The translations under genes were made by a program, and so were the position numbers. A stretch of DNA of 64,000 nt from Sipunculus nudus (Eukaryota > Annelida > Sipuncula > Golfingiida > Sipunculidae), in the NCBI GenBank assembly GCA_026874595.1, contig CM049309.1, positions 306,501 through 370,500 of the forward strand. The letters run 5' to 3'. A model generated the notes under the pieces. It was not told the origin of the DNA. It searched no databases and saw only the letters and a list, made by a program, of their open reading frames with translations. Position 1 is the stretch's first letter, and the number at the start of each line of letters is the position of its first letter. This document shows positions 249-64,000 of this stretch, piece after piece.

Positions 249-3200
249 GCAGGCTTTGCTGCCCATTATTTATTAGTTAGTTTATATGCGATGAAAATAA
301 AAAAAATCATTTATAGCTAAGATGACTTTTAGCCATATCGACCTGTGAGATCAAACATTATCCATAACTGTTATATAGGTATGTCAGTTGATATCATACT
401 CCTAGAATATTAAATAAACTAAGATTAACAATATAAGATGATATTATCAATTAAGAGAAAGATAATTTTAGGTAAGCTGACTTTAATCATGCTACACAAT
501 AAAAATTCACTTGGTCTGTTCACCTTTGTCTGTCTGTTGAATTTCAATTTATTTTTTAAAAAAATCAGATATTACACACAAGGTTGACAGGCAGCAGTTT
601 AATCATCATGCCCATACTTTTTTTTATTATTGATATTGATCCTTTAACTGATGAAACCTAAAATAAATTGTTTTTCTCAGAGTGGCACTTCAAGGGTGAA
701 AGAAGCAGATTGGTTGGACAGGTGTCAATCAGCATTTGAATGGGCAGAGCATATGATGCCATTTATGTATTTCCTTGATGCTGAAGGTGAAGTTTCAGGA
801 ACTTTACTCTCACTTCTTCTTGAGCTTCCACACACATTGGAATCCGCCCATGTTCTAGCACACTACTTCCATGACCTAGAAAACCTGGATCCAGAAATTC
901 AAGAGAGAGTCCGAGCTGTTCTGATGGAGTGGAATAATATTTTCTTAGATAAACAGAGCTCAGATTCAAGGAGGAAATCTCGCAAATCTGATAACCATCC
1001 CCTACCATCACCAAGAGGGGCTACATTGTCAACTGCATTCCATAAATATGTTCAGCAAAATGAAAAGGAAATGAAGCAGAGAAGGGATGCCTTTGGAAAG
1101 ATTGAGCAGTTTGTTTTTGCAGATCATAGTGACCAAGAGCTTTCTGAACCAGATGGTTTGAATTACATTGGTTCCCGATCATTTGAGAGTGATAACATGT
1201 TCCTCAAGTTCTTGGACACATTTTACGCAGTGTGTTTTAATCGAGCTGTTGAGGAAGAACATGAAAGTCAGACTACCCATCAGCCTTTGCTGCAACCATT
1301 TGCCTCCGCAGTCAGAGAACGAGAACTCAGTTCTGTAGCCCACCAAGCTGCAACAAACCTGCAAAAGAAGCAAGCCCTGGTACAATCCCCTCGACGTGAG
1401 AAGATTTCAATCAGGAAGCCAGCTCCACCAGAAATCATTGATTTAGACTTCCTTGTGGGAGCTAGTCCCAAGAGGAATTTTGGTTTGTTTCGCAGTAAAA
1501 GTGTCAGTGACATCAGAGGTCGATCTGATTCTAGTGTTGTAGCAGACTCTCAGGGTCTTGAGAAAAGGTATTTAAGCGATGTCAACCTGGCTGCGGAACC
1601 GATGGATAAATTACCGCCGCCAGCAAGGACAAGAAGTTCTAGTCTCAACCGAGTAAACAGGAGACCAAAACGTAGCTTTAGCACCCCAGAGACTAAATCT
1701 AAGTCAAATCAGGGTGGGAAAGTTAAACGTAGCTTAAGTTCATTGAATTCACCTTCTGGAGGAAGTGAAGACTCTATATCAAGACCTTTTGAAGATGATC
1801 CATTAGCAAAACCTCTTATTCCTACTCATATTCTTACTCAGCTCAAGTTTCAGAGGCAGTACAAAGAACTTGAACAGTTAATGGAATGGCTTGTTCGCTG
1901 GTCTGGCAAGCAGCATTTGCTTAGTTTGAAGAAATCCCAGCAGGGGACAGAAACATCTGCCATGTCAGTCAGTCCAGCGATGAGGATCCGAGTCCACCCA
2001 CAGATGGTTATGCACAGCATCTGGTTGATGGACAATGAATATCATGCATCAAAGATACAGAGCCAGAATGTGGTGGATGAGAATGTGGTGTCTGATGAAG
2101 GTATTACAGCTGGAGAGAAGCAATTGGATCTAGAGGGAGCTAACTGCTCTAAAGAAGCTAAGCCTCCAGAACACTTTGTCCCACCAGAAGATATTCCAAA
2201 GAAAGATATTCTTAACAGCAAAACTGGTAAATTGCCAAGAAAGAAGAAAGACAAACTTAAAAGAAAACCAGTAGTTCCACCACTTAATCTTGAGGAAGAG
2301 CCAATCATAGCCCAGTCTGAAATTGAGGCACAAATTCAGCCAGTTAGAGTGCATTCTGAAACAGAGGCTAAATTTCAGCCGTCCAGAGTGAGTGAAGATG
2401 AACTGACCCAGGTAACAGATGTTCACTCTGACAGAACTACAGGCAGGGCATTACCATCACTTCGCAGTGTTCATAGTGACCACAGGTTAGTTGACTTGCA
2501 GTCTACTTTGTCCATGTGTAATATCAACACTGTTTTGTCTTCCAGTGATCATCATTACTTACGTGTAATGGATCTCTCTTTGTATATTTTTTTCTGTATA
2601 CAATATTCATGCGATCCCTTATAAATCTCTTATAAAATAGCTACCATCATTTGCAGTATTTAACCTCAAATCCCAAGCACAATTTTGTGTATTTTTATTT
2701 ATAACTAGACATTTAGCTGAAATTAATTAAATAAACCAGATTTATTGAAGATATGCAGTGAATCCTCTTCTCTGTTGAGATTTGCTGATGATTTATATTT
2801 TATCGGTATAAAATTGTTTATTGTGCAGATGATAGTCTGTTTGTTCAAGTGAAAGTACATAAAGTAATAAGAACTATGTACCATCATTATTTAAACATGG
2901 GTAATAATATTTTATACTTCTGTTCCAAAAGTCCTGGAAGAATCAGCAGCCCTGGCCTTGGGTCACTGCCAGAAGAAACCAAGAAGACTGAAACTATGGA
3001 CAGTGCTGCTGCTGACAGCAGGTTAGCTCAGAGCTTTATACTCATATGTATGATGTGGGGCTGTAATGATGCATTGAATAATCTACATGTACTATATTAA
3101 AACAATATTCAAATAATATCTAAAATAATAATTGATACATTGAATCAAATCTAGACACTAATTTATAGTTGTATTACACTTATTTTCAAACACTTTTTAG

Positions 3201-6200
3201 CTCAGCTGACTTTCAGTCATGCTGAGCTATAGCGATCACTCTTTGTCCGTCGTCCGTCTGTCCGTCTGTCTGTCCGTCTGTCCGTTAACCTGGCACAAAT
3301 CGTAACCGCTGGACTTAGAATCTTGTAACTTTACATTCTGAGAGGTCAATGAAAAATCTCCTTGGAAACCAGAAATTAGGTCTCTGTTACCCATATCCTT
3401 CGAGCTATTGGGCCCCAAAGTATCCCCCAGAATAGTCAAAATTTTCATACAAAAACTTTAATATCTCATTAACTACATCACTGATGGTCATGATTTTTGG
3501 CATACATATTTATGATGAGATGTTTCATCAGTTCCTGCAGATTGGTGGCGCCACCTGTATTTTTAGATTTTTTACGAATTTTTTTCTCTATTTTTAAGAC
3601 CTTTAAAAATGTGAACAACTGTTAACAGGGCACAAATCATAAAGACTGGACCTAGAATCTTCATTCTTGACACAGTGAGAGACCTATGAAAAGTCTCCAT
3701 GGAAACCAGAAATTAGGTCTCTGTTACCCAAATCCTTTGAGCTATGGGGCCCCAAAGTACCCCCCAGAATAGTGAAAAATTTCATACAAAAACTTCAATA
3801 TCTCATTAACTACATCACTGATGGTCATGATTTTTGGCATACATATTGATCATGAGATGTTTCATCAGTTTCTGCAGACTGGTGGCGCCACCTGTATTTT
3901 TCGATTCTTTACGAATTGTTTTCTCTGTTTTTGAGGTCTTTTAAAATGTGGACATCTTTTAACAGGGCACAAATCGTTAAGACTGGATCTAGAATCTTCA
4001 TTCTTGACACAGTGAGAGACCTATGAAAAGTCTCCATGGAAACCTGAAATAAGGTCTCCGTTACCCATATCATTTGAGCTGTGGGGCTCCCAATTACCCC
4101 CCAGAATAATGGAAAATTTGATTTAAAAAAACTGCAACATCTCAATAACTACAATACAGATGGTCATGATTTTTGGCATACATATTGATCAAGAGGTGTT
4201 CCATCATTTCCTGCAGACTGGTGGCGCCACCTGTATTTTTTCAAATTTTTACAATATTTTTTTCTCTATTTATGAGAACTTTAAGGATGTAATTATCTGT
4301 CAACAAGGTACAAATTGTAATGACTTGACCTAGAATCTTTATTCTTGACACACAGGGAGACCCATGAAAAGTCTCCATGGACACCTGAAATTAGGTCTCT
4401 GTTACCCATATCCTTAGAGCTATGGCACTCCAAAGTACAGCTCGGAATAATGGAACATTTGATACATAAGCTGAAGTATCTGAACAACTTATGCAGAGAT
4501 CACCATAATTGTTTGCATGGATATTGATCATGGAGTGTTTCATCAGTTTTTGCAGACTGGTGGCACTACCTGTATTTGTTTGGGTTTTTAGCTCAGCTGA
4601 CTGTAAGTCATCTGAGCTATAGCAATCACTCTTTGTCCGTCGTCCGTCCGTCTGTCCGTCCGTCTGTCCATCTATCCGTTAACCTGGCACAAATCGTATC
4701 GCTTGACCTAGAATCTTGTAACTTGACATTCTGAGAGGTCCATGAAAAATCTCCTTGGAAACCAGAAATCAGGTCTCTGTTACCCATATCCTTCAAGCTA
4801 TGGGGCCCCAAAGTACCCCCCAGAATAGTAAAAAATTTCATACAAAATCTTCAATATCTCATTAACTACAACACTGATGGTCATGATTTTTGGCATACAT
4901 ATTGATCATGAGATGTTCCATTAGTTCCTGCAGACTTGTGGCGCCACCTGAATTTTTTTCTCTATTTTTGAGACCTTTTAAAATGTGGACATCTGTTAAC
5001 AGGGCACAAATCGTAAAGACTGGACCTAGAATCTTTATTCCTGAAATTCTGAGAGACCTATGAAAAGTCTCCATGGAAACTAGAAATTAGGTCTCTATTA
5101 CCCATATCCTTCAAGCTATGGGGCCCCAAAGTACTCCCCAGAATAGTGAAAAATTTCATACAAAAACTTCAATATCTCATTAACTACATCACTGATGGTC
5201 ATGATTTTTGGCATACATATTAATCATGCGATGTTTCATCAGTTTCTGCAGACTGGTGGCGCAACCTATATTTTTCGATTTTTTACGAATTGTTTTCTCT
5301 GTTTTTGAGGTCTTTTAAAATGTGGACATCTTTTAACAGGGCACAAATCGTTAAGACTGGATCTAGAATCTTCATTCTTGACACAGTGAGAGACCTATGA
5401 AAAGTCTCCATGGAAACCAGAAATTAGGTCTCTGTTACCCAAATCCTTTGAGCTATGGGGCCCTAAAGTACCCCCCAGAATAGTGAAAAATTTCATACAA
5501 AAACTTCAATATCTCATTAACTACATCACTGATGGTCATGATTTTTGGCATACATATTGATCATGAGATGTTTCATCAGTTTCTGCAGACTGGTGGCGCC
5601 ACCTGTATTTTTCGATTCTTTACGAATTGTTTTCTCTGTTTTTGAGGTCTTTTAAAATGTGGACATCTTTTAACAGGGCACAAATCGTTAAGACTGGATC
5701 TAGAATCTTCATTCTTGACACAGTGAGAGACCTATGAAAAGTCTCCATGGAAACCTGAAATAAGGTCTCCGTTACCCATATCATTTGAGCTGTGGGGCTC
5801 CCAATTACCCCCCAGAATAATGGAAAATTTGATTTAAAAAAACTGCAACATCTCAATAACTACAATACAGATGGTCATGATTTTTGGCATACATATTGAT
5901 CAAGAGGTGTTCCATCATTTCCTGCAGACTGGTGGCGCCACCTGTATTTTTTCAAATTTTTACAATATTTTTTTCTCTATTTATGAGAACTTTAAGGATG
6001 TAATTATCTGTCAACAAGGTACAAATTGTAATGACTTGACCTAGAATCTTTATTCTTGACACACAGGGAGACCCATGAAAAGTCTCCATGGACACCTGAA
6101 ATTAGGTCTCTGTTACCCATATCCTTAGAGCTATGGCACTCCAAAGTACAGCTCGGAATAATGGAACATTTGATACATAAGCTGAAGTATCTGAACAACT

Positions 6201-9200
6201 TATGCAGAGATCACCATAATTGTTTGCATGGATATTGATCATGGAGTGTTTCATCAGTTTTTGCAGACTGGTGGCACTACCTGTATTTGTTTGGGTTTTT
6301 AGCTCAGCTGACTGTAAGTCATCTGAGCTATAGCAATCACTCTTTGTCCGTCGTCCGTCCGTCTGTCCGTCCGTCTGTCTGTCTATCCGTTAACCTGGCA
6401 CAAATCGTATCGCTTGACCTAGAATCTTGTAACTTGACATTCTGAGAGGTCCATGAAAAATCTCCTTGGAAACCAGAAATCAGGTCTCTGTTACCCATAT
6501 CCTTCAAGCTATGGGGCCCCAAAGTACCCCCCAGAATAGTAAAAAATTTCATACAAAATCTTCAATATCTCATTAACTACAACACTGATGGTCATGATTT
6601 TTGGCATACATATTGATCATGAGATGTTCCATTAGTTCCTGCAGACTTGTGGCGCCACCTGAATTTTTTTCTCTATTTTTGAGACCTTTTAAAATGTGGA
6701 CATCTGTTAACAGGGCACAAATCGTAAAGACTGGACCTAGAATCTTTATTCCTGAAATTCTGAGAGACCTATGAAAAGTCTCCATGGAAACTAGAAATTA
6801 GGTCTCTATTACCCATATCCTTCAAGCTATGGGGCCCCAAAGTACTCCCCAGAATAGTGAAAAATTTCATACAAAAACTTCAATATCTCATTAACTACAT
6901 CACTGATGGTCATGATTTTTGGCATACATATTAATCATGCGATGTTTCATCAGTTTCTGCAGACTGGTGGCGCAACCTATATTTTTCGATTTTTTACGAA
7001 TTGTTTTCTCTGTTTTTGAGGTCTTTTAAAATGTGGACATCTTTTAACAGGGCACAAATCGTTAAGACTGGATCTAGAATCTTCATTCTTGACACAGTGA
7101 GAGACCTATGAAAAGTCTCCATGGAAACCAGAAATTAGGTCTCTGTTACCCAAATCCTTTGAGCTATGGGGCCCTAAAGTACCCCCCAGAATAGTGAAAA
7201 ATTTCATACAAAAACTTCAATATCTCATTAACTACATCACTGATGGTCATGATTTTTGGCATACATATTGATCATGAGATGTTTCATCAGTTTCTGCAGA
7301 CTGGTGGCGCCACCTGTATTTTTCGATTCTTTACGAATTGTTTTCTCTGTTTTTGAGGTCTTTTAAAATGTGGACATCTTTTAACAGGGCACAAATCGTT
7401 AAGACTGGATCTAGAATCTTCATTCTTGACACAGTGAGAGACCTATGAAAAGTCTCCATGGAAACCTGAAATAAGGTCTCCGTTACCCATATCATTTGAG
7501 CTGTGGGGCTCCCAATTACCCCCCAGAATAATGGAAAATTTGATTTAAAAAAACTGCAACATCTCAATAACTACAATACAGATGGTCATGATTTTTGGCA
7601 TACATATTGATCAAGAGGTGTTCCATCATTTCCTGCAGACTGGTGGCGCCACCTGTATTTTTTCAAATTTTTACAATATTTTTTTCTCTATTTATGAGAA
7701 CTTTAAGGATGTAATTATCTGTCAACAAGGTACAAATTGTAATGACTTGACCTAGAATCTTTATTCTTGACACACAGGGAGACCCATGAAAAGTCTCCAT
7801 GGACACCTGAAATTAGGTCTCTGTTACCCATATCCTTAGAGCTATGGCACTCCAAAGTACAGCTCGGAATAATGGAACATTTGATACATAAGCTGAAGTA
7901 TCTGAACAACTTATGCAGAGATCACCATAATTGTTTGCATGGATATTGATCATGGAGTGTTTCATCAGTTTTTGCAGACTGGTGGCACTACCTGTATTTG
8001 TTTGGGTTTTTAGCTCAGCTGACTGTAAGTCATCTGAGCTATAGCAATCACTCTTTGTCCGTCGTCCGTCCGTCTGTCCGTCCGTCTGTCCGTCTATCCG
8101 TTAACCTGGCACAAATCGTATCGCTTGACCTAGAATCTTGTAACTTGACATTCTGAGAGGTCCATGAAAAATCTCCTTGGAAACCAGAAATCAGGTCTCT
8201 GTTACCCATATCCTTCAAGCTATGGGGCCCCAAAGTACCCCCCAGAATAGTAAAAAATTTCATACAAAATCTTCAATATCTCATTAACTACAACACTGAT
8301 GGTCATGATTTTTGGCATACATATTGATCATGAGATGTTCCATTAGTTCCTGCAGACTTGTGGCGCCACCTGAATTTTTTTCTCTATTTTTGAGACCTTT
8401 TAAAATGTGGACATCTGTTAACAGGGCACAAATCGTAAAGACTGGACCTAGAATCTTTATTCCTGAAATTCTGAGAGACCTATGAAAAGTCTCCATGGAA
8501 ACTAGAAATTAGGTCTCTAATACCCATATCCTTCAAGCTATGGGGCCCCAAAGTACTCCCAAGAATAGTGAAAAATTTCATACAAAAAATTCAATATCTC
8601 ATTAACTACATCACTGATGGTCATGATTTTTGGCATACATATTAATCATGCGATGTTTCATCAGTTTCTGCAGACTGGTGGCGCAACCTATATTTTTCGA
8701 TTTTTTACGAATTGTTTTCTTTGTTTTTGAGGTCTTTTAAAATGTGGACATCTTTTAACAGGGCACAAATCGTTAAGACTGGATCTAGAATCTTCATTCT
8801 TGACACAGTGAGAGACCTATGAAAAGTCTCCATGGAAACCAAAAATTAGGTCTCTGTTACCCATATCCTTCGAGCTATGAGGCCCCAAAGTACCCCCCAG
8901 AATAGTGAAAAATTTCATACAAAAACTTCAATATCTCATTAACTACATCACTGATGGTCATGATTTTTGGCATACATATTAATCATGAGATGTTTCATCA
9001 GTTTCTGCAGACTGCGGACGCCATCTGTATTTTTTCGATTTTTTACGATTTTTTTCTCTATTTTTAAGACCTTTAAGGATGTGGTTATGTGTCAACAGGG
9101 TACAAATTGTAACAACTGGACCTAGAATCTTCATTCTTGTCATGCAAGGAGGCCCATGAAAAGTGTCTGTGGAAACCTTAAATTAGTTCTCTGTTTCCCA

Positions 9201-12200
9201 TATCCTTCAAGCTATAGGACTCCGAAGTATCCCTCAGAATAATGGACAATTTGATACAAAAGCTAAAAGTATCTGACCAACTAATGCAGAGGTCACCATG
9301 ATTCTTTACATGCATATTGATTATGGAGTGTTTCATCAGTTTCTTCAGACTTATGGTGCAACCTATATTTTTATTAAATTTTTTTGAATTTTTTTCTCTA
9401 TTTTTGAGACCTTTAAGGATGCTGTCATCTGTTAACATGGCACAAATTGTAACAACTGGACCTAGAATCTTCATTCTTGTCATGCAAGGAGGCCCGTGAG
9501 AGTGTCTTTGGAAATCTGAAATTAGGTCTCTGTTACCCATATCCTTCACGCTATAGGACTCCGAAGTATCCCTCAGAATAATGGAAAATTTGATTCAAAA
9601 GCTGAAGTATCTGAACAATTAATGCAGAAATCACTATGATTCTTTGCATGGATGATGACCATTAAGTGTTTTTATTAGTTTCTGCAGACTGGTGGAACCA
9701 CCTGTATTTTTTTTAAAGTTTACGCATTTTTTCCCATATTTTGAGATATATAAATTCAGAAACAATCTTGGCTTATTCTTTAATCTGTTTGATGCTTCAG
9801 TTGAATGGGTATATACTACCATTCAGATGATAAAATTGCCTTTTGCAAATCTCTTCCCAGTCAGCTGAGCGTCATGACCCATGGGTCACTTGTTTTTATC
9901 CAAAACTCATATCTGAGGTCATATAAACAATATACATGATGTAATAAGCATAATTGTTTACAAGGAAAGTCATGATACCTTCTGCATTTGATGTTAAAAA
10001 AAGCATCCATCATTGTATCCCTAGACAAAGTTGGGATACTATGGTTTAAGCATGGTCGCGCCGCTGCAGAGATTTCATTTGGACGCAATACGTTAGCTGA
10101 TAACTCAAAAAATATTTTACAGATCTTTACCAAACTTGACATGTGCATAGATATGGGTGAGAGGACAAAGCCTATAAAAAATGGGGTCATGACCTTTTCT
10201 AGGAGAGTGACCTTGGCCTTGAATAGATCCATTTTGGGTAAAATCACACAAATTCATAAATATCTCAGAAAAATCTTTCATGGATTGATAAAAAAATCAA
10301 CTTGACCGAAGATCTAGGGCAGCGTTGACAGGTATTGGAAACTGGTGGCGCCACCTGTTATCCTTTACTTGTTGTTGTGCAGTTTAATACCCCCATCATT
10401 GGCACCTAACAGTACTGTGAGCATTATAAGTCAAAAACTAATGGACAGATTTCTTTCATATTATGCATATACATAGACATAGGTTATGGGAGGATGTGTA
10501 TTAAAATTGGGATCATGACCTTGAATATTGCCATATATGGTGAAATTCACACAAAATCATATATATCTTAATAAGGGATGCATGGATCGGTCCAAAAATC
10601 AAACTGACTGAAGATCTTGGATAGCTTTGTCTTCTGTGGAAAACAGGTGGTGCCACCTTCTGTCCTTTTCTGGTTTTTTCGCACTTTTTAATACCTTATC
10701 ATTGCTGCTTGACAGTACTGAGCATTATAAGTCTAAAACTAAAGGACAGATTGGGCTGAAATTGTGCATGTCCGTTTATCTTGGATACCTCCATCTTGTA
10801 TTCAAGACTGGTGGTGCTATCTGCAATCGTTATTGTGTGACGTCATTCCATACATTTGCTTTTGGTGAAAATTATATATCCAGGGTGGTTCAAGGTATAG
10901 GTATTGGTCTGAAATTATTTGCTGCTGAAGATGGGGGCCTATTCTTAAAGGGGGGGGGGATTAATTGTCTGGGGATACTATGGCACCTGGTGCCAAGAAA
11001 TATCTAGTTGTATATAACTTCACATACATGACATCCCTTTTAGTTCACTCTGTGAACTTGCACACTTGTGCAGCGTCCATCGACTGTTACCAAATATCTC
11101 AGCAGCCGCTGCTGCTTTCACCACAAAACTTTGCAGACTTTTTAGCAAACCTGTGAGCTTAAGAGATGGTGTGGTGTTGTACATCATCTGTGCGTTAACC
11201 ATAGCTATCTCAAAAACAGCAGGAGCTAGCATCACCAAATTTTTTTGCATATAATCAGTCATCCAAAACACTATATCGGATTTTGTTTATTTTTTTTCTA
11301 ACTGCATTTTCTTAGATTTTATGGGGAAAAAGCTAAAAAAGCTTTAAAAATCTTCTTCTCCGAAACTGTCCAGCCAAATTGTCCAATATTTCACAGAAAT
11401 GATCCTTGGAACAATCTCTCTCAAGTTTGTTCGACAGGAGGTTGAACTTTGTCATCTGTCCAAAAAAGCATATAAAATTTAAATCTCAGAAACGGCTGGA
11501 GCTATCATCACCAAATTTAATGCCAATGATGGTCACATGAGTCATATCTGAAATTGAGGTATTGGTGGCGCCACCTGCATTGATCTGTTTTTTTACAAGC
11601 AAAAACGTAATTTTAGATTCTTCTAGCTTATACACTGTTTTATGATGAAACTGTTAAGCTGATTGGTTTAAACTTAACAAGAATTATTCTATGGTAGGGG
11701 GTCTGCCAGTTTTATAAGAATAGATTGGGTAATGCAGCTTTAAAAAAGTAGTGTAGCCAATTGAAAAGGCGTTCTGTGTTTGAAAACAGATTTGACAACA
11801 TGCCAAGTTTCAGCAGCCAAGTCAAGAGGTCACTCAGTACAACCAGGTGGGGTCCAGACATCACCATGGCAACTGACCTGGCTCTGTCTGGTGTCCAGAT
11901 AATGTGTCTAGATGTCTAGACACAGTGTCTAGACATTTAGACACCTAGTCTAAACGCAGAATGCCCAGATTAGAATTGTTGAAACTAAATCTTTTAACTG
12001 TTTGAAAAAACTTGGTTTGCATTTTTAGCGAATCTGTGAGCTTATGCAGTGGTGTAGCGTCGTTCTTCTTGCGTCATAGCTATCTCAAAAAGGGCAGGAG
12101 CTTGCATCACCAAATATTTTGCAAAGAATTTCTCATCTAATAAAAATTTTATCGGATTTTGCTAATTTCTTGGCTAACTGCTTTTTCTTAGATTTTATAG

Positions 12201-15200
12201 GGAAGAAGCTAAAAACATGAAAAAAAATGTTCTGCTGCCAAATTGTCCGTTCGTCTGTCCCAGTAATTTTCCCTGGCAAAAAGAACATATCCGAAAAATC
12301 CTGACTGATACATCCTAGTTTTAAAATGTCCTAATCCGAAACTTGCAGGTCCGAAACGTCCATTTTTCTGAAATCAAAATGACTAAGGAAGATATGCAGG
12401 ACATAAGAGGATCAATATTAAATTTATAAATAAACCTCCATTCATACTCCCAAACTTTGCACATGTTCACATTAAGCCTGTAGGCCTTGTTTTATTTTAA
12501 GGAATTTTCAAAATTTTATCTCAATGTGTCCATGAAGGTGTATGTATGTGTGAACTACAAGATAAAATTTAAAACATGGAATATCAGATTATTGAGATAA
12601 TCGACAAGTAAAAAAATCAAGTATTGGAATAGGTTTTGACAAAAGATTTCCCTGACTCACCATGCTTTGTGGTATTGTGACCTACATAGTTAAACGTTAT
12701 AACAAAATTGGATTTTAAATTTTAGATTTTAGATTTTATATGCCTGTCCTTGACTCAACATATAATGCTATACCAACAGTCTGTTGTTAACTTTGTGTAG
12801 CTGTGATAACTTTCTGGGGCTTTGATGGGTTTTCACGAAATACTATTATCTAGCCCGAGTTCGGTTATAGGCAAAGTCAAGGCATATTTAATGAGGTCAG
12901 AGGTCACAAGGCTACTTTGTGGTGTTGCAGCAATAACTTATCAGGAATATGATGAATTTTGATGAAACAATAGACCAATATTATATCTCATCTAATTTTG
13001 ATTCCCGGCAAAATCCATGCATATTTAATGAGGTCAGAGGTCACAAGGCAAGTTTGAGGTGCCATGATGACTTACCAAAATCTGATGGATATTCATGAAA
13101 CTCGTTATGAATATCAACCAATATTGTTTCTCATCCTAATTTAATTCTTGGCCAAATTCACTCATATTTAATGAGGTCAGAGGTCACCAGAAATAATATG
13201 GGCGTATAATGCACAATTGCAGTGTTCTTTTTAGACTTTGGATTGCCTGCTGTATACCAAACAATGCCAGCTATACAATTTGAGGCACTGCAATTGTTTA
13301 TAAATATGCAAATTTATCCAAATTATGCAGCTCATAACTTTGCACTGACAACAGTGCAGTGCACTGGAATGGTTAGTCAAGTATAGACCTGTCTGGCTAT
13401 GCATGAGTACCTCACATACTGTGTGTAGGTTTATGTTTATCTGCACATTGTCATCATGGTTTGTTTATTTGCACTAAACCAGTCTTTAGTATAACCTTTC
13501 TCAGATGGTCCAGCAGTAGGGTCAGGTCTGTATACCTGACATTACCTGTTTATAAACTACTACACCATGTCTTATAAATATAATATATGGTACATGGTAA
13601 CCTGAACAATATATGTGTTGCTGCCATGTGGCAAGTAAGTATTTTATTCCTACTCACTTTGTCATATATAGCTGTCACATTTTCTAGTTATTTTGGATTT
13701 TATCATGTATAGCTAAATCACAGCATATACTGATCCACGGTAGGAATGAACTGTTGGGACGGGGGTAGTAGGGTTCAGGAGCTTAAGGTTAGGGATTTTG
13801 CCATGAAGTCACAGTACTGCACATATTATGAGAATCTTCTTAGTTAACTTAGCCAGCTGTCTCCTGAGGTTTGCTCTTACCTTTCACAATCATTCACCAG
13901 TAGAACTGTTCTCAAGTTATATCAGACACCTGTATTACATACTACACCTGATATATTGTTATATATGTCTTAGTCAAACTAATGGTCTTCTTGTGCAACT
14001 AAAATAAACTGCACATGAGGTTGTAGGACTAAAATATCTCCCAGTGGTTTTAAAGCTGACAAACACAGTGACAAGGGACTCATGATGTTAGAGCAATCAC
14101 TGGGTAATTGATGGATAGGGATAAGAGCCCTTGATGAGTGCTAATATTATTCTACTCCCTTCTTTTGTATAAATCTGAGGCCATAACAGTGTGTAAAGTT
14201 TGGTTTCAATAAGAATTTAAACTGATTTCCCACAATATATTCAAGGGTATGCAGGTGTGTGTATTTGGTAAATAAATGTGAATTAACCTGTTAACAAAAG
14301 CATTTTTTGTGTAAAAGCTATTATTGTTTCATAAAGATAAGTTTTGCTCATTTCTTTTTCAACTTAGTGAATAGAGATGATTCAACTGGCATGTAAATGT
14401 AGGGTTACATTTTAAAGATTTTACATGAAATTGAAGTAGACCACCCTATCATAGGCCCCACCCCCTCCCCCTTCCCTGATTAATGTGAATATAAATTACC
14501 AATACACCATACCATACAAATATGACTTTTGTGAATTTAATTGTATCCGCCAAAACAGAGTTTTGCGGATACTATGTTTTCAGCTGCACGCCGCCGCCGC
14601 GTAGGTGTCCAGAGAACTCCTCCCTAACCGCTGGGCAGAATTTTACGAAACCCAGGATTATGTTCGGGTCATATGTGAACTGCTGCGCCCCGATTTTGTT
14701 TTGACCTCTGACCTTTCCTCTGCGCTCCGCGTCCGTTTGTGCGTCTGTTTCCACACATAAACCCACATATCTCGGGAACCGTTTGACGGATCAGGAAAAT
14801 TTGTTTGCACAAATGTAGCCCTTGGAGAGCTTTATAACATACACACAAAATGGTGGCGCCACCTGCAACCATGTTTGCACAGTGTCCATCTGTTCGTCTG
14901 CCTTGGGTTAAAATCACTCATATCTCTGCAGTGATTTGACTAATTCATCTGAAATTCGGCATTCGTATACATCCTGGATAGCTTATCGGATTTTATGACA
15001 GGTGGCGCCACCTACATTCACATTTACGCTGCAAACATCCAAGCTCATATCTTGGGAACCGTTTGACGGACTGGGCCAAAATTTAGCATGTGTATAGATC
15101 TCACATAGCTCTTTATCATACGAAAAACTGGTGGTGCCACCTGCAGCCATTTTTGCACAGCTCCCATCTGTTTGTTTGCCATGGGATAAAATCACTCATA

Positions 15201-48200: not shown

Positions 48201-51200
48201 AACCAAACTTGCTGCATTGATGTTTCTGATGGAGGGCCAGGTCAAGATTGAATATGGATGACCTTCATGCAGTTTTCAAGGTCACAAGGGTAATTTTGTT
48301 GTGTGACATTGACCCATCTCAAATTTCATATATGTATTAACAACTTATTTTTTCTAGCTATTCCCACATCAGGTGGGGGACATACTAGATCTGTTCCACA
48401 GATCAACTTTTCCCTTGTGTTTTACTAAATCTGTATAAACATGGCAGTATGGTGTGTCTCCAGAAACCAAGCAGCCCCCGCTCCTTCATCAGCGTGGTAG
48501 ACATACAGGGGGCAGCACTGGACAATATCATGTCTCAGATGCCTGAGAAGAAGGTGATACTGCAGCAGTCTCCTGATCCCGTGCCAGCTCCACACATCAG
48601 CACCAAACTTCCTAGAGGGATACTCAAGTCAGGTGTGTTTGAATAGTGTGTAAAATGACTGTCATTCTCAAAATCAGGGGAATCCTTAAAGCATGAGTTT
48701 CTTTTTTATTTAAGTCAGAAAATTTTATTAAAATGCCTTTGATCATGAAAATCAGGAAATTTGATTGGCCCAAAAGGGAAATAAGCCAATCTATTACCAG
48801 TTTATTTTGTCTTATTTCCAAACAGCACATCCATCAGATGATTTACTGTGTTGTTTTTATTTTGAGTACATTCAGTTGTACATGGAATATATACATATTA
48901 GTTCCTTAGTATCACTATGTATACTGTAACAACAAAGATAATGTGACAAATGTGAAAGTTCATTGTAGAGACTGCATGACAGATCATTGTAGATAATGAA
49001 TGACCAAGAAGAGAAGGAATGCATACTGACACATCAAAGATGTTATTGAATTTCTGGATGCTCTGTACACTGCAGTCTCTGGTCTGCCTTGCAATCTCTG
49101 AATTGAACCTTTGGTTCTGTATAATCAGTCTGTATTGTCAGTCTTGAACTGTGTCACGTTGCTTTACAGAATCCACAAAACAGAGTAGCAGTCCTGAGAG
49201 ACAGCCTGGTCCTGATGCTGTGACAGCAAGACTCCTTGAAGATCGCCCTCTGGATGCCAGCATTGATGAGTATGTTAAATTTCCACCAGGGGTCTCTGCT
49301 AGGCTCACCTCTGGTCAAACTCACCAGACTTATGTAGGTCTTGAAATTTTAGGATCATTCTGGCTCCATGAATCATCCTGGTTTGACAATGAGCATTTTG
49401 AAAATTTTGGCCTAATCAAAATAGAATAGTTTCCTAAAAACTGTTGTATTAGGATTTGGAATTTTCACAAGTGGGCATGTATAGATACATGCATTCATGA
49501 AGTTAAGCAATAATACACAGTGTGTAATTGATAATTTAGCCCTATTCAGGACTACACCATTGAACTGGTAATTCATACAATTGTCTCCTGTACTTTTTTT
49601 CAGAAAAGAAAATGTAATATTTAAAGAATAAAGCCTTTTGTATATGTTGGTTAATCTTGATGCCTTTAGTTTCCAGCGATGGTCCTGATTACTCAAAACC
49701 TTCCCTGTCATACAAAAGTTTAAAGAAAAAATCATATTTAATTTTATATCAGTTCTCAGTGTGATGCTAGTCACCTGAGCATCATGACCCATGGGTCACT
49801 TTTCTGATATTACCTGCTTCTTATATGTAAAGGGGCATTACATGTGAAGTTTAGTATACAATGTTTCAGGCTGGTAGCAGCTGATATGGCTACAAAGGGA
49901 TATCGCTTCCGAACAAAAAGTGGAATCAGAAAGAGGCTAGGGCAGATGAATGATCAAATCTCTGCCATCAATCAGATGTCAGCCAAAATGGAGGCTGAGT
50001 TCCAAAACACCCGACTGGTGAGTACCAACAGTCAAACACAGGAAAGGTCACATACTCCAGTCACTCACACAGGAAAGGTCACATACTCCAGTCACTCACA
50101 CAGGAAAGGTCACATACTCCAGTCACTCACACAGGAAAGGTCACATACTCCAGTCACTCACACAGGAAAGGTCACATACTCCAGTCACTCACACAGGAAA
50201 GGTCATGTACTCCAGTCACTCAAGGATAAGAAACCTGTTCAGATCAGTGATTATATCAATTGGTGTTGACATGATATGATTAAGAATGGAAAAAAAATTA
50301 TGAAACCTTGTCCAATTGAATGTCTGAATGGTTGATGCCTTTTTGTGTGTATTTTTGTATTTGCACAACTTAAATTTTTGATGTTTTGCAAACAAATAAA
50401 GTAAAACTTACCTTGGTTAATATTCATTGCCAGATAGGATACATTCTGTAATTTAGAATAATCTTAAATGGGATGAACACTCTTTTACATAACTTTGGCA
50501 ATATTGTTCAGCCCCAGTGGAATGTTGACAAAAAACTCATAATAAATCATTTCAAAGATTAATACCAGGTGTCTTTGAGGGTAAATTGTTTTATTTTTTA
50601 CCTTGAATAAAAGTATACTAATAAGTATACACTTTTCTATCTGCATATGAATCTTGTAAATAATTATTGGCTTTTGTATTCATGCATTATTTCAGCTTAT
50701 GAACACAGTTGAAAACATGGCCGAGGCAATGGAGCCAGACAGGGAGCAATACCCTCCAAGTAGAGCATTAAAACATGTTGGCACACCAGGGACCCCAGTC
50801 AAGGAACTACAGGTAAGTGTACTACCAACAGACCTAAAACCACAGCTCACATTCTATATTAGACTGGCCAAGTCAGTATGCATTAAAATGACATATCTGA
50901 GCCAGTGAATATAATTTGCCTCCAGATTTGATTAAATTACTATCATATAGCATGCCGTACCACACATGGCTGTGGGCATACTGACATATAGAGTGAACAA
51001 CAAGGTGATAGCGCCACCTGTCACTACCTGGCTGTACTAGGGGTTTTCTTTATACATCAGCAATATTGATGTCTTCATCAGGATTTCATTACAAATAAAG
51101 TACAGTAGAGCGCCATTTTTCTGAATGCCGATTTTCTGAAAACTTGTTTTACCAAAATTTAAAATCGGGAACCGAAAATTTATTGGGATTTAAGAAAAAT

Positions 51201-56196: not shown

Positions 56197-56339
56197 GTAA
56201 ATTCAGACAACTTTTCTATGTATTCTTTCATTTTATTCTATCTTGCAGTTTGTCAGAGGCCTTTCAAAACAGAAGTTTTATTACATGAACAGCAATGTGA
56301 GCTTTTCTGTGGGTTCTCCAATCTGTAGGGGATTTTGTA

Positions 56340-56861
56340 CAGACCATAAGTATACACCCAGTGCTCGCAACCCAAGTTTTGTCACTGGTACTGTCTCTGC
56401 CTCTGCCGCTGCCTCACTACCACCAGGTACCAGCCCTCAATGATTTACTGGCACATTGTGGTCTCTCTGGATCTATCAGATTACCAGTCTGGAGCATGCC
56501 CTGGCTCATTATGGCTTACCTCGGTGCACCAGCAATCGTTTTATTCAGATCCGATATATCCTGTGGCTCTGTGGTTTTCACTGTGCTGTTCGTTGCTCAC
56601 ATATCCACCTACACTCCTTCCCATCAATCACTACCCAGTGTGAGCACTCTGCAGCCTTTATGGGAAGGCTGAACCCCACAGCCTGGTATCACTCACAAAC
56701 GAGTGCGTCTTTGGGAGGTTCCTCAAACTGTGTTATGACCGAGCCATGGATATGCTAACCATTCCCGGCCCTTCAGGTGCCGCAAAAACACCGGGCCTTG
56801 GTGACATCAGGATATACCACAATGCCATGGATCCTTTGGTGCAGGACCTCCATTACCTTAA
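56340..56861 (+). other. Unassigned GC-richer segment, possible decayed coding relic (left part)
   Basis: This stretch is richer in GC than the surrounding intron and open in several frames over 200-300 bases. One reading includes SLVSLTNECVFGRFLKLCYD then RAMDMLTIPGPSGAAKTPGL, with a stop just upstream. 56605-56720 (GAGCACTCTGCAGCCT, CACTCACAAACGAGTG) also matches part of the SINE-like repeat at 54555-54630. It may be a dead retroelement or repeat mosaic. No family is recognised. Confidence 0.35.
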
Positions 56862-59849
56862 AGCGAACCTGTGAGCTTATGCGATGGCGCAGCGTCGTCC
56901 GTAAGCCGTCAGCCATCCGCCGTCCAGGGCTGGCTTTCGGCCGTCCATGGCTGTAAGTCAGAAACCGTCAGAGCTAGCAGCTCCAAATTACATGTAAGAA
57001 TTAGTCACATGTGAAATTTGTTGCCCTGGAGCTAAGTAATGGGTATCTGCATTAATTTAGATTTTATAGAGAAAAAGCTTAAAAACCTTTAAAAAATTTC
57101 TTCTCTGAAACTCTATAGCAAAATTGTCCAATATTTCACAGAAATGATCCCTGGAACAATCTCTCCCAAGTTTGTTCGAATGGTTCCAGTTCGAAGATTT
57201 TTGGCGGAGTTACAGGAGGTTGAACTTAGTCATCTGTCCAAAAAAGCACACTAAAATTAAAATCTCAGAAACTGCTAGAGCTATAATCACCAAATTTTAT
57301 ACCAATGATTATCACATATGTCATATCTGATTTTGAGGTATTGGTGGCGCCACCTACATTGATGTGTTTTTTACAAGCGAAAATGTAATTTCAAACTCTA
57401 CTAGCTTATACACTGATTTATGATGAAACTGTAAAGCTGATTGGTTTAAACTTTACAAGAATTATTCTATGGGTTCTGCCAGTTTTTATAAGAATAGATT
57501 GGGTAAATACAGCTTAAAAAAAGCAGTGTATCCATTTGAAAAAGGCTTTCTGTATTTGAAAACAGATTTGACAACATGCTGAGTTTCAGCAACCAAGTCA
57601 AGAGGTCACTCAGTACAAACAGGTGGGGTCCAGACATCACCATGGCAACTGACCTGGCTCTGGGGGAGTGTGGAGACAATGTGTCTAGACGTCTAGACAC
57701 AGCGTCTAGACATCTAGACACAATGTTGAGATGCAGAATTCCCAGATTATTGGAACTATATCCTTCAACTGTTTGAAAAAACTTGGTTTGCATTTTAAGC
57801 GAATTGGGTTTATCCTCAGTTCAGATGTGAACTGCAGCCCCCTCATTTTTGGTTGACCTCTGACCTTTCCTCGCTGCCCAGGGTCCATTTGTGTGTCTGT
57901 TTCCACACATAAACCAGCATATCTCGGGAACCGTTTGACCGATCAGGCTAAAAATTTTGCACAAATGTAGCCCTTTGATAGCTTTATAACATACACTAAA
58001 AGTGGTGGCGCCACCTGCAACCATTTTTGCACAGCCTTCATCTATTCATCTGCCTTGGGACAATATCACTCATATTTCAGTAGTGGTTTGACTTATCCAC
58101 CTAAAATTTTGCAGGTTTATACATCCTGGACAGCCTTCTCGATTTTATGATAGGTGGTGCCACCTAAATTCACTTTTACTCTGCAGACATCCAAGCTCAT
58201 ATCTCGGGAACCGTTTGAATGATTTGGCCAAAATTTTGCATGTGTATAGATCTCACATAGCTCTTCATCATAGGCAAAACTGGTGGTGCTACGTGCAACC
58301 ATTTATGCACAGTGTCCATCTGTTCATCTGCCTTGGGATAAAATCACTCATATCTCAGCAGTGGTTTGACTTATCCACCTGAAATTTTGCAGGTTTATAC
58401 ATCCTGGACAGCTTTCTTGATTTATGACAGGTGGCGCTACCAACATTCAGGTTTACTCTGCAGACATCCAAGCTCATATCTCGGGAACCGTTTGACTGAT
58501 TGGGCTAAAATTTTGCATGTGTATAGATCTCACATAGCTCTTCATCATAGGCAAAACTGGTGGCGCCCCCTGCAACCATAAATGCACAGCACAGATCTGT
58601 TCATCTGCCTTCGGATAAAATCACTCTTATCTCAGCAGTGGTTTGATATATCCACCTGAAATTTTGCAGGTTTAAACATCCTGGAAAGCTTTCTCGATTT
58701 TATGACAGGTGGCGCCACCTACATTCAGGTTTACACTGCAGACATTCAAGCTCATATCTCGGGAACCATTTGACCGATTGGGCTAAACTTTTGCATGTGT
58801 ATAGATCTCACATACCTCTTCATCATTGGCAAAACTGTTGGTGCCACCTGCATCCTATTATGCACAGCGTCCATCTGTTCATCTGCCTTGGGATAAAATC
58901 ACTCATATCTCAGCAGTGGTTTGACTTATCCACCTGAAATTTTGCAGGTTTATACCTGCATCCTGGACAGCCTTCTCGATTTTATGACAGGTGGCGCCAC
59001 CTACATTCACGTTTACTCTGCAGACATTCAAGCTCATATCTCGGGAACCATTTGACCGATTGGGCTAAAATTTTGCATGTGTATAGATCTCACATACCTC
59101 TTCATCATAGGCAAACTGGTGGTGCCACCTGCAACCTATTATGCACAGCGTCCATCTGTTCATCTACCTTGGGATAAAATCACTCATATCTCAGCAGTGG
59201 TTTGACTTATCCACCTGAAATTTTGCAGGTTTATACATGCATCCTGGACAGCCTTCTCGATTTTATGACAGGTGTCACCACCTACATTCACATTTACTCT
59301 TCCGACATCCAAGCTCATATCTCGGGAACCATTTGAGCGATTGGGCCAAAAGTTTGCATGTTTATAGATCTCACAAAGCTCTTCATCATAGGCAAACTGG
59401 TGGGGCCACCTGCAACCATTTTTGCACAGCGTCCATCTGTTCATCTGTGTCACTCATATTTCAGTAGTGGTTTGACTTTTCCACCTAAAATTTTGCAGGT
59501 TTATACATCCTGGACAATTTTCTTGATTTTATGACAGGTGGCACCACCGACATTCACGTTTACGCTGCAGACATCAATGCTGACATACAACACACCTCAC
59601 TCTATTCCCCTTGCCACTTAATCCATGCCTCACTTCACCCGTCCCACTCTGATTTCTGTTGTCTACCCATATTCTAGTTTTAAAATGTCCTAGTCTGAAA
59701 CTTGCAGGTCCGAAATGTCCATTTTGCTAAAATCATAATGACTAAGGTAGATATGCAGGACTTAAAAGGATCAATATTAAATTTTAAAAATAAACCTGAA
59801 TTCATACTCCCAAACTTTGCACAGGTTCGCATGAGGCCTGTAGGCCTTG
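56862..59849 (+). mobile_element. Family 9 element with nested family 3 copy
   Basis: The 5' end is AGCGAACCTGTGAGCTTATG, followed by GTCGTCCGTAAGCCGTC. The 3' end is CAGGTTCGC (exact inverted repeat of GCGAACCTG), then AGGCCTGTAGGCCTTG followed by TT. 56862-57790 matches 11144-12026. It carries AGGTGGCGCCACCT-like centres (57344) and the GTCTAGAC palindrome cluster (57680-57725). Confidence 0.78.
57806..59677 (+). mobile_element. Family 3 element, copy C, 5'-truncated, inside family 9
   Basis: Starts within the GTGAACTGC...TTGACCTCTGACC region without the 5' hairpin. Six ~280-bp dimers carry alternating centres near 58003, 58153, 58287, 58427, 58560, 58706, 58839, 58990, 59122, 59273, 59398 and 59540. 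It ends GTCTACCCATATTCTAG followed by TTTT, with the 3' hairpin eroded. Confidence 0.75.
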
Positions 59850-59861
59850 TTATCTTTAATT

Positions 59862-60655
59862 GATAAGCCACACTTACTGTATGCCTATCCCCAGGGTTTT
59901 GGGCTGATTCTTGTCTGTTGTATGCCCCATCTGTCAAAGACTGGCTTCCTCACACTCCTCTGGTTTATGAATTCTTACAAGGTGTTCACTTCAATTATTC
60001 TCAGCCACGTATCTTTACTCCTTCATTCTGTCTTAATATCTTACTCCACCATTTCCGGCGCTTCTTTTTCACCTGTCTCATAATTTGGTGTTTCTTCTTG
60101 CTCTTGCCTTGGCAGGGCATCGGGCTTAGCTGCCTGCTGGTTTTTTCTGCAACTCTTCTTTTCCCCCTGTTTTATCGTTAAATCAGCCATCTGTTGCCCC
60201 TGCGGTTCTATGGCTCCTTCCTGCTCTCCCTAACGGGCATTTTAGGTTTGAAGCCACAATCTGTCCAGTTCATGCCTTTTGCTCTACCTCCAGGCGAACA
60301 TGTCTCACTGGAAGACCTTTCTTCCTTCAATGTACCCGCTAATGATGACAGAGCAATCGCTACCTCCTTGCTCACTTATCTGGCATCTCAATTTCCCAGT
60401 TCCAAAAGAAGGGCTTCTGGAAATCTCCTTTCATGACATTTTATCTAAATGATATCCATCTACAGGCCTCTGGTCTGTAATCTGGTCCTGTAGTTGCTGC
60501 TGGTGCGGTTCTTCAATTCTCACCACTGTCTACCATTCCAGCCACTACTTCGACGATTCCTGCCAAGTCTTCTAGGCACGAGTTGTCTCCGTTCAGTTCA
60601 CATCTTCCTTAAAGGCTGGTATCTCCCCTCCCCATGGGTTACCTATTATTTTTTT
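59862..60655 (+). other. Unassigned GC-richer segment, possible continuation of the 56.3-kb relic
   Basis: Resumes directly after the family 9 element. It has CT-rich composition and short open frames, one reading CMPHLSKTGFLTLLWF and another FALPPGEHVSLEDLSSFNVP. No conserved motif is seen. The juxtaposition suggests that 56340-56861 and this segment were once continuous. Confidence 0.3.
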
Positions 60656-60658
60656 ATT

Positions 60659-63600
60659 AGCTCAGCTGACTATAAGTCATCTGAGCTATAGTCGTGGTCC
60701 ATTGTCCGTCGTCCGTCCGTCTGTCCGTCCGTCCGTCCGTCCGTCCGTCCGTAGATGTGGCACGTTTTGAAACCGTAAGACCTAGGAATCCAAAATTCGG
60801 CATAATGTTAGATGTCCCCAAGATCTCCTACCAAGCCGAAAACTGGGTCTTTGCGACTTCGTTCCTTTGAGAAATTAAGGAAAAACCTCAATTTTTTTAT
60901 TAAAAACCTATTTTCACACTTCAGGACTGCCTAATATCAAAATGACTCATCTGTTTTTCCTCATATTTACCATAAATATTCTTCTATATAGTTCCTATGT
61001 ACATGCCTGAAATTATGTCTGTATTATATAATTGTATCCGCCAAAACAGAGTTTTGCGGATACTATGTTTTCAGCTGGCCGCCGCCGCCGCCGCCGCGTA
61101 GGTGTCCGGAGAACTCCTCCGTAACCGCTGGGCGGAATTTTACGAAACCCGGGATTATGTTCGGGTCACATGTGAACTGCTGCGCCCCGATTTTGTTTTG
61201 ACCTCTGACCTTTCCTTTGCGCTCTGCGTCCGTTTGTGCGTCTGTTTCCACACATAAACCCACATATCTCGGGAACCGTTTGACCGATCAGGAAAATTTT
61301 TTTGCACAAATGTAGCCCTCGGAGAGCTTTATAACATACACCAAAAATGGTGGCGCCACCTGCAACCATGTTTGCACAGTGTCCATCTGTTCGTCTGCCT
61401 TGGGTTAAAATCACTCAAATCTCTGCAGTGACTTGACTAATTCACCTGAAATTGGGCATGCGTAAACATCCTGGATAGCTTTTCTGATTTTATGACAGGT
61501 GGCGCCACCTACATTCACGTTTACGCTGCAGACATCCAAGCTCATATCTCTGGAACCGTTTGACCGATCAGGAAAATTCTTTTGCACAAATGTAGCCCTT
61601 GGAGAGCTTTATAACATACACCAAAAATGGTGGCGCCACCTGCAACCATGTTTGCACAGTGTCCATCTGTTCGTCTGCCTTGGGCTAAAATCACTCATAT
61701 CTCTGCAGTGACTTGACTAATTCACCTGAAATTGGGCATGCGTATACATCCTGGATAGCTTTTCTGATTTTATGACAGGTGGCGCCACCTACATTCACGT
61801 TTACGCTGCAGACATCCAAGCTCATATCTTGGGAACCGTTTGACCGATCAGGAAAATTCTTTTGCACAAATGTAGCCCTTGGAGAGCTTTATAACATACA
61901 CCAAAAATGGTGGCGCTACCTGCAACCATGTTTGCACAGTGTCCATCTGTTTGTCTGCCTTTGGTTAAAATCACTCATATCTCTGCAGTGACTTGACTAA
62001 TTCACCTGAAATTTGGCATGCGTATACATCCTGGATAGCTTTTCTGATTTTATGACAGGTGGCGCCACCTACATTCACGTTTACGCTGCAGACATCCAAG
62101 CTCATACCTCGGTAACCGTTTGACCAATCAGGAAAATCTTTTTGCACAAATGTAGCCCTTGGAGAGCTTTATAACATACACCGAAAATGGTGGCACCACC
62201 TGCAACCATGTTTGCACAGTGTCCATCTGTTCGTCTGCCTTGGGTTAAAATCACTCATATCTCTGCAGTGGTTTGACTAATTCACCTGAAATTCGGCATG
62301 CTTATACATCCTGGATAGCTTTTCTGATTTTATGACAGGTGGCGCCACCTACAATCAAGTTTACGCTGCAGACATCCAAGCTCATATCTAGGGAACCGTT
62401 TGACCGATTGGGCCAAAATTTTGCATGTGTATAAATCTCACATAGCTCTCTATCATATGCAAAACTGGTGGCGCCACCTGCAGCCATGTTTGCACAGCTC
62501 CCATCTGTTTGTCTGCCATGGGATAAAATCACTCATATCTCGGCAGTGGTTTGACATATCTGCCTAAAATTTTGCAAGTTTATACATCCCCGACAGCTCT
62601 CTTGATTTTATGACAGGTGGCGCCACCTGCATTCTAGTTTATGCAGCAGATATCCAAGCTCATATCTTGGGAACCGTTTGACCGATTGGGCCAAAGTTTT
62701 GCATGTGTATAGAGCTTTCTGGATTTTTTCGTAGGTAGCGCAACCTACATACACAATTTGGCTGCAGACATCCATGCTAATATGCAACACTTCACCCGTT
62801 CCACTCTGATTTAGGCGGATACAAGTAGTCGCTTGTCGACTACCCGTATTCTAGTTTAAAAAAGTTATGAGCCCAAACATAATGCATTTTGTAAAAAATC
62901 AGGAAAGATATTTGATCACTTAACACAAAATATGTTAAAGCTATGGACTTTTTTTCCAGTAATATAACTTTAATTAATCAAAATTAAATTGTATACCCAA
63001 AATTAGATCAAAATCTTTTAAATTTTTTAAAATATTTACAAAAATAAAAAATTGGTACCTTAAATTTAGCCCAACTTTGACCATGGCACATTTTTTTCCT
63101 GTAAGTACTGTGGATTTAATTTTCACAGTATGTTTTTGTTAGCATTTTGTCTGTTAACACCAAAAATTTGAAACCAGTTGATCAAAAACTGTAGATTTTA
63201 TTCAAGTTTTCAAACACCATGGAACATATTGTTTACATCAAGCTAGTGTTATGCAGTTTGCAAGAGCTCAGCTCCCCAGCTTCAGCTCTCAGTTCCTTAA
63301 ATTTGGCATACAATTAGATGTCTCCAAAATCCCTAACCATGCCAAGAATTTGGTCACTAGGACTTAATACCTTCGAGATATTAATGAAAAACTTCATTTT
63401 TCCATTAAAAACCCATTGTTACACTTCAAGACTGCCTAATATCAAAACAACTGATCTGACTTTAATCATATATAATATACATATTTTTCTATACATTCTC
63501 TATGCACATGCCAGATATGATGTCAGTATTGCGTAACTGTTTTAAGTTATGGGCGCAAACATTATGCACTTTGTAAAAAATCAAGAAATAATTTACTCCC

Positions 63601-64000
63601 TTAACAGGGAGATTGCTGAAGCTAGAGATTTTTTTTTCAGGGATGTAACATTATTTAATCAAGATTCAATTGAATACCCAAAATTAGTTCTGAATTTTTC
63701 AGATTTTATAAGTTATTAGTATAAATATAAAATTAGTACCTTATATTTTGCTCAACTTTGACCATGGCACGTTTGTTTCCTGTGAGCACTGTTGATATAA
63801 TTTTCATGTCATGCACACATAAGGATTTCAGCTTTTTAGTGTAGAAAGCTGAAAGAAATTGGCCAAAAATTGTAGCTTTTGTTAATGTTTCTATGAGACC
63901 ATGTCAGACTTTGGCCCTCTCCAGCCCCTCTTGAGTCACCTGTATGTTGACCTTGTTGAACTTTCAGCAAATTATGCATGCTTGACGCGAGGCATAAACT
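60659..64000 (+). mobile_element. Family 4 element, interrupted by a family 3 copy, runs off the window
   Basis: The start is AGCTCAGCTGACTATAAG with hairpin and the longest (GTCC)n tract in the window (60710-60752). It is split at about 61033-62855 by family 3 and resumes with TTTAAAAAAGTTATG, co-linear with 29553 onward to the window edge. Confidence 0.82.
61034..62854 (+). mobile_element. Family 3 element, copy B, intact both ends (about 1.8 kb)
   Basis: The 5' hairpin is GTATCCGCCAAAAC-AGA-GTTTTGCGGATAC, with a GCCGCCGCCGCCGCCGC run. Dimeric 280-bp repeats have centres at about 61350, 61498, 61630, 61778, 61910, 62058, 62190, 62338, 62467 and 62615, giving 148/132 spacing. The 3' end has GGCGGATAC, the hairpin GTAGTCGCTTGTCGACTAC, then CCGTATTCTAG. 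The 280-bp units at 61300-62180 are almost identical to each other. Confidence 0.88.

Follow-up and report, generated by a model that had tools for sequence, protein, structure and literature searches.

A 64,000-nucleotide stretch of the Sipunculus nudus genome (contig CM049309.1 of assembly GCA_026874595.1, positions 306,501 to 370,500; the window hereafter) carries several families of repeat elements, which we assign with high confidence to HINEs, the non-autonomous members of the Helitron2/Helentron branch of rolling-circle transposons (the "pearl" type in bivalves). Features that favor this class are the subterminal inverted repeats, which measure about 11 bp, the inverted repeat at the 5′ end of four families, the GTCC microsatellite of family 1, tandem arrays, palindromic 3′ sequence in most families, and T-runs as insertion targets. 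By structure, the elements are very probably HINE-type and rolling-circle; Helentrons proper are set apart from other Helitron2 elements by the endonuclease domain of the partner. The element kind is a known one, and the families of this window are new members of it. An initial annotation had described five unrelated families (1/4, 2, 3, 6, and 9) with one HINE-like architecture. The class fits the structure found here, including subterminal repeats, arrays, T-run targets, and three unoccupied sites, but the description of the families as unrelated requires correction (see below).

The five motif pairs, in which a 5′ subterminal motif recurs as an inverted copy near the 3′ end, were all present where they had been placed. 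In 12 elements, the 5′ 45 nt were scored against the 3′ 60 nt by a mismatch-tolerant measure, using randomly drawn segment pairs of the window as a control, which revealed pairs of 8–14 bp, some with one mismatch. Nine of the 12 elements reached P < 0.05, one was marginal (37394, P = 0.065), and the best copy of each family gave P values of 0.001–0.03. The pairs are exact in the four family 1 copies (12, 10, 9, and 8 bp; P = 0.002, 0.008, 0.016, and 0.065) and in the two family 3 copies (10 and 11 bp; P = 0.002 and 0.001), and match at 13/14 and 12/13 bp in the two family 2 copies (P = 0.002 and 0.004). The pairs of family 6 (ATGCCCCCGCC/GGCAGGGGCAT, 10/11 bp, P = 0.03) and family 9 (GCGAACCTGTG/CACAGGTTCGC, 11 bp exact, P = 0.003) are real, but longer than originally given. 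No inverted pair beyond chance was found in the remaining two elements, at 44614 (P = 0.51) and 12026 (P = 0.27).

The 5′ hairpins proposed for families 1, 2, 3, and 6 fold far better than shuffled sequences (z = −5.2, −5.9, −7.7, and −4.8, respectively), and family 9 lacks one (z = −0.1). At the 3′ end, the proposed short palindrome held for families 2 and 3, whose ends fold better than shuffles (z = −3.0 and −2.3), but not as a folding hairpin in families 1 and 9. The perfect palindrome of family 1, GACCCATGGGTC, is intact in three of seven ends and broken by a change in four; the family 9 end is palindromic in sequence without unusual folding, and family 6 has no clear palindrome. The predicted CTAG or CTTG followed by T was borne out in a 15-row table of element ends, where 13 of the 14 3′ ends carry one of these motifs (CTTG in families 1 and 9), one carries TTAG (42192), and all 14 continue with TT. 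On the 5′ side, 13 of 14 flanks end in T (for example CATCATT, family 2 at 10017), the exception being TTAAA at the family 9 copy at 56863. A seed-free scan for a palindrome followed by CT[AT]G and TT returned 13 sites on the plus strand and two on the minus strand, compared with 1–3 in each of six shuffled windows (one strand each). Seven of the plus-strand sites are ends of described elements, three are the array palindrome, and three are without assignment.

Unoccupied paralogues of the insertion sites were available because three insertions (24180, 29188, and 61034) sit inside other repeat copies. For family 3 at 61034, the unoccupied sequence is AATTTA in four of four among the matches listed, and the occupied site reads AATT/GTATCC...CTAG/TTTAA. 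Eight matches span the family 1 insertion at 24180; T5 is present in the three closest and GGT4 in one more, the remaining four having diverged at this point, compared with T5 plus T2 in the occupied site. Of the nine unoccupied copies that correspond to the family 1 insertion at 29188, four have T7, one T6, one T5, and three a run interrupted by G; the occupied site has T5 plus T4. All three sites lie in T-runs and are fitted most closely by the addition of two Ts, without further duplication of the target. It is ambiguous whether the TT is part of the element or duplicated, since T-runs cannot tell the two apart. No spanning match, and hence no unoccupied site, was found within the window for families 2, 6, and 9, and a 74% spanning match to the flanks of 37394 was set aside, as it resembles a local repeat. 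The initial annotation had named missing inverted pairs and staggered target duplications as signs against a Helentron origin; within the window, the pairs are present, and no staggered duplication exceeding TT was observed.

Oyster, mite, and fly HINEs and bivalve pearl elements match this architecture, which is therefore not new. Cg_HINE of Crassostrea gigas shares subterminal inverted repeats of 11–12 bp, a complementary inverted repeat behind the 5′ copy, a GTCC-type microsatellite, an array of 140–180 bp units, a 3′ subterminal repeat followed by a palindrome, and oligo-T targets without duplication; its 11 families are unlike in sequence and alike in structure, with the autonomous partner left unresolved in that report (PMC7492417). 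The elements described here, compared by structure only, differ in having units also of 278–340 and 681 bp and, in one element, four 5′ ends. HINE/DINE-1 elements of mite and Drosophila share the subterminal inverted repeats, the 5′ inverted repeat, a 3′ stem-loop (clear in families 2 and 3 of the window), tandem repeats in some, a TT-rich target, and paralogous empty sites without target modification; they differ in that the 3′ end in the window is CTAG or CTTG and in having a known autonomous partner (PMC4067079). The pearl elements CvA, CvE, and CvG of C. virginica likewise combine unlike sequences with one structure (PMC11136912), and pearl elements and DTC84 of bivalves resemble the present families, by description, in their central satellite-like repeats (PMC5139131, PMC7492417, PMC11136912).

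Known Helitron biology suggests how such elements would move. A Rep/helicase encoded at another genomic locus would recognize the element ends and nick one strand at the 5′ end, and this strand would be peeled off as synthesis replaces it. A second cut past the 3′ palindrome would yield a circle, and the copy would then be joined into a T-run. Several observations weigh against the HINE assignment. No Rep/helicase gene was detected in a Pfam scan of 15 of the 48 open reading frames (ORFs) of 90 aa or more; the longest ORFs of the window measure 658, 331, and 203 aa, and the mite protein 1,881 aa. The 3′ ends of families 1, 6, and 9 fold no better than shuffles (z = +0.6, −0.1, and −0.7), family 6 is known from one copy, and the TT gained at all three unoccupied sites could be a 2-bp duplication.

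An alternative that we consider possible, though unlikely, is that the elements are of Helitron2 type and moved by a Rep/helicase without an endonuclease, and thus rolling-circle elements but not strict Helentrons. Structure alone cannot separate the two: Helitron2 is described with asymmetric inverted repeats, hairpins at both ends, and insertion sites that have TTTT on one side and T or C on the other (PMC5148889), and the ends of families 2 and 3 (TT...CTAG) recall the Phytophthora proto-Helentron, described with 5′ TT, 3′ CTAG, and insertion between A and T (PMC4067079). However, oyster and mite HINEs fit closely in all parts tested. Very improbably, the elements are miniature inverted-repeat elements (MITEs) of a DDE transposase with a 2-bp TT target duplication; the net gain of two Ts at all three unoccupied sites fits, but the inverted repeats are subterminal and lie farther from one element end than from the other, the 5′ hairpin is built from the inverted-repeat motif, and several copies have extra 5′ ends but one 3′ end. 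The definition of such MITEs, with terminal repeats and a fixed duplication, does not describe these subterminal repeats and the ambiguous TT gain at three sites. Classical satellite arrays with ends shared by chance can be dismissed, even though arrays form much of several elements, as copies at separate loci begin and end at identical bases and have unoccupied paralogues.

Canonical Helitrons (Helitron1) have 5′ TC and 3′ CTRR ends, insert between A and T, and lack terminal inverted repeats. They are ruled out here by the absent 5′ TC, the inverted repeats, the T-run targets, and the CTTG ends of families 1 and 9.

Tandem arrays fill much of several of the HINE-like elements, with units that include 180, 278–340, and 681 bp, and family 1 carries the GTCC microsatellite. 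The element at 3195–9892 has a single 3′ end, and its 5′ ends are spaced by 1391, 1711, and 1711 bp. Two of its periods (4585–6295 and 6296–8006) are 99.9% identical, and the remaining periods are 88–90% identical. Head-to-tail copies are known among Helitrons. Family 1-type ends bound at least three interiors, namely 337-bp units, 681-bp units, and the 146-bp-type array at 44610, and alike ends around differing interiors have been published for group 2 of Cg_HINE (PMC7492417). Two arrays of about 146 bp are related to each other, one without recognized ends (15944–16790) and one inside the diverged family 1-type element (44821–45117).

The arrays of several families share a palindrome, GGTGGCGCCACC. 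Allowing at most one mismatch, it occurs at 46 sites between 3544 and 62616, compared with 0.05 expected from 20 simulated windows (first-order Markov), although arrays amplify, so that far fewer than 46 independent events are involved. All 46 sites lie in elements, namely family 1 of the 337-bp type, family 2, family 3 (including a truncated copy), and family 9; the palindrome is missing from the 681-bp family 1 copies, family 6, and the 143/146-bp arrays. Unit consensuses are 100% identical in the palindrome, a value partly built in because the palindrome served to choose the units, compared with 30–40% around it and 27% for random sequence. GGTGGCGCCACC, mostly followed by T, equals two overlapping AGGTGGCGC-like cores. 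These cores may resemble CTCF-type insulator sites; AGGTGGCGC is absent from the 12 papers listed out of 269 in a wide literature search on CTCF, a narrower one combining AGGTGGCGC, CTCF, and Drosophila listed one paper, and a literature text search for GGTGGCGCCACC gave one match, on an unrelated topic. Searches with element patterns returned one contig matching the palindrome context in IMG/VR, no match to the exact family 1 5′ pattern in IMG/VR, and no match to the family 1 3′ pattern in GTDB genomes. In bivalves, the repeats of DTC84 are described as having a conserved palindrome close to their junction (PMC5139131).

The relations among the families were further defined by sequence patterns and profiles. 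The 40-nt family 3 5′ pattern matches the family 2 5′ end at eight edits. A family 3 unit profile from which the palindrome had been removed scored 30 bits for the unit at 41949, 21 and 11 bits for family 2, and 11 bits for family 1 at 23890–28191, all above the best of 30 shuffles, and was marginal for family 1 at 3195 (7.9 vs. 7.5) and 29183 (5.8 vs. 4.7). Family 9 did not rise above shuffles (5.5 vs. 8.4; 0.1 vs. 2.8), and nothing was found in family 6 or the 143/146-bp arrays, so that core homology across all families is not supported; for family 9, the palindrome is the one feature shown to be shared. The claim of five unrelated families thus fails for families 2 and 3, which have common 5′ ends and core units, and is qualified by the palindrome common to families 1 (337-bp type), 2, 3, and 9, but is otherwise partly right. 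The unit at 41949 was assigned to family 2 because of its 3′ end and its 81% identity to 10756–10902, and this identity of the core rules out a family 2/family 3 mosaic at 41.7–42.2 kb.

All 17 counted insertions (Table 1), each recognized by its own ends or array, lie on the plus strand, for which a coin toss gives 2 × 0.5^17 = 1.5e-5, a pattern noticed after the fact. Left out of this count, and also on the plus strand, were a 3′ end at 34069 (perhaps that of the copy at 23890) and two weak candidates, at 34140 and 43772. Self-BLAST (E 1e-10) returned 310 same-strand pairs, many of them within arrays, and no opposite-strand pair; at looser cut-offs, two matches on opposite strands, 22 and 28 nt long, were obtained. 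In the seed-free scan, the seven true element ends are all on the plus strand, and the two minus-strand sites are unassigned and at shuffle level. The supply of T-runs is too even to explain the orientation (267 runs of at least five Ts on the plus strand vs. 246 on the minus strand; 5.5 vs. 4.6 per kb in mostly-element stretches). Cryptic poly(A) and splice-acceptor signals are slightly rarer on the plus strand of the elements (2.1 vs. 2.5 and 0.14 vs. 0.23 per kb). The same holds for the flanks, which gives no support to avoidance of such signals as the cause, although selection may still play a part. Donor-like GTRAGT is more frequent on the plus strand (0.34 vs. 0.14 per kb; small numbers).

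The one-way orientation may reflect chance, selection, or strand-directed insertion. A speculative reading, which we hold to be doubtful, is that the orientation of HINE insertion is locked to local transcription or replication, and that GGTGGCGCCACC is kept constant in the arrays of otherwise diverged elements, where a host protein might bind it. The rolling-circle intermediate would then join only T-runs exposed on one strand, either the non-template strand during transcription of a gene or one of the strands at a replication fork, and insertions across one gene would thereby face one way. Cg_HINE occurs in both orientations genome-wide, unlike the single orientation in this window (PMC7492417). 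Among the papers listed for Helitron insertion orientation, none but the Helraiser paper was on point, judged by title.

The window has 37% GC over 64 kb and is eukaryotic in appearance. A plus-strand ORF or exon at 55939–56325 matches the Pfam Joubert family (PF15392) with E = 1.3e-5 and 25.5 bits, below the cut-off of 27, and further long plus-strand ORFs lie at 3–317, 648–2621, 21254–22246, and 49148–50266. From these ORFs, a gene of the Joubert family, which we take to be of the CPLANE1 type, probably runs through the window on the plus strand. Because the Joubert-matching exon and the other long ORFs sit on the plus strand, many elements are probably intronic and in sense orientation to this gene; those past 56.3 kb may fall outside it. 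A 31-bp repeat, present six times with 98% likeness, was found at 50036–50222 within an open plus-strand frame adjoining a likely exon.

Table 1. The 17 counted insertions in the window.
Feature	Coordinates	Strand	Remarks
Family 1 element, 337-bp-unit array	3195..9892	+	One 3′ end; 5′ ends at 3199, 4590, 6301, 8012
Family 2 element	10015..11007	+	Both ends; 79% identity to copy at 32517
Family 9 element	11139..12489	+	5′ ends 11144, 12026; single diverged 3′ end; inverted pair no longer significant
Family 3 element, 278-bp array	14541..15716	+	Ends, array, inverted pair
Outer family 1 copy, 5′ part (681-bp-unit type)	23890..24174	+	Split by two family 1 insertions; continues at 28192
Family 1 element nested in outer family 1 copy	24175..28191	+	Unoccupied paralogues, 8 spanning matches
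Family 1 element nested in outer family 1 copy	29183..31814	+	Unoccupied paralogues, 9 spanning matches
Family 2 element, 325-bp array	32515..33796	+	Ends, array, inverted pair
Family 1 element (681-bp-unit type)	37389..39891	+	Ends; 93% identity to copy at 29183
Family 2 copy without recognized 5′ end	41746..42192	+	3′ end; 81% to 10756–10902; family 3 profile 55 bits, core also family 3-like
Diverged family 1-type element	44610..47402	+	Array related to 15944–16790; inverted pair not significant
Family 6 element, 180-bp array, inside 44610–47402	45416..46779	+	Single copy; no unoccupied paralogue found
Isolated family 1-type 3′ end	49771..49801	+	3′ end sequence
Family 9 element with end-truncated family 3-like element inside	56860..59849	+	Ends, self-BLAST
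Family 3-like element in family 9 copy	57806..59678	+	5′ end missing, 3′ end damaged
Family 1 copy, 5′ part (681-bp-unit type)	60655..61031	+	96% to 29183–29557; continues at 62855 past family 3 insertion
Family 3 element, 280-bp array, nested in family 1 copy	61032..62854	+	Unoccupied paralogues

Some of these elements form nested stacks. The outer family 1 copy that begins at 23890 may end at 34099, where the last 33 nt and nothing more are shared, and the family 2 copy at 32517 is plausibly a third insert in it. The continuation of the last family 1 copy (62847–63996) is 95% identical to 29549–30693. Other repeats of the window include a same-strand dispersed pair of 0.8 kb without recognized HINE ends (18690–19501 and 35355–36158, 88% identity), a second same-strand dispersed pair (40134–40883 and 51153–51999, 69–78% identity), and 47-bp and 38-bp tandem arrays at 17698–18054, 19885–20574, and 42753–43435, two of which are 47-bp arrays with a common unit.

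The HINE-like elements are ordinary in kind, and their unoccupied sites, copies with multiple 5′ ends, and nested stacks bear on how rolling-circle transposition ends and restarts. The one-way orientation, if true genome-wide, would be a natural readout of the strand attacked by the Helentron intermediate.

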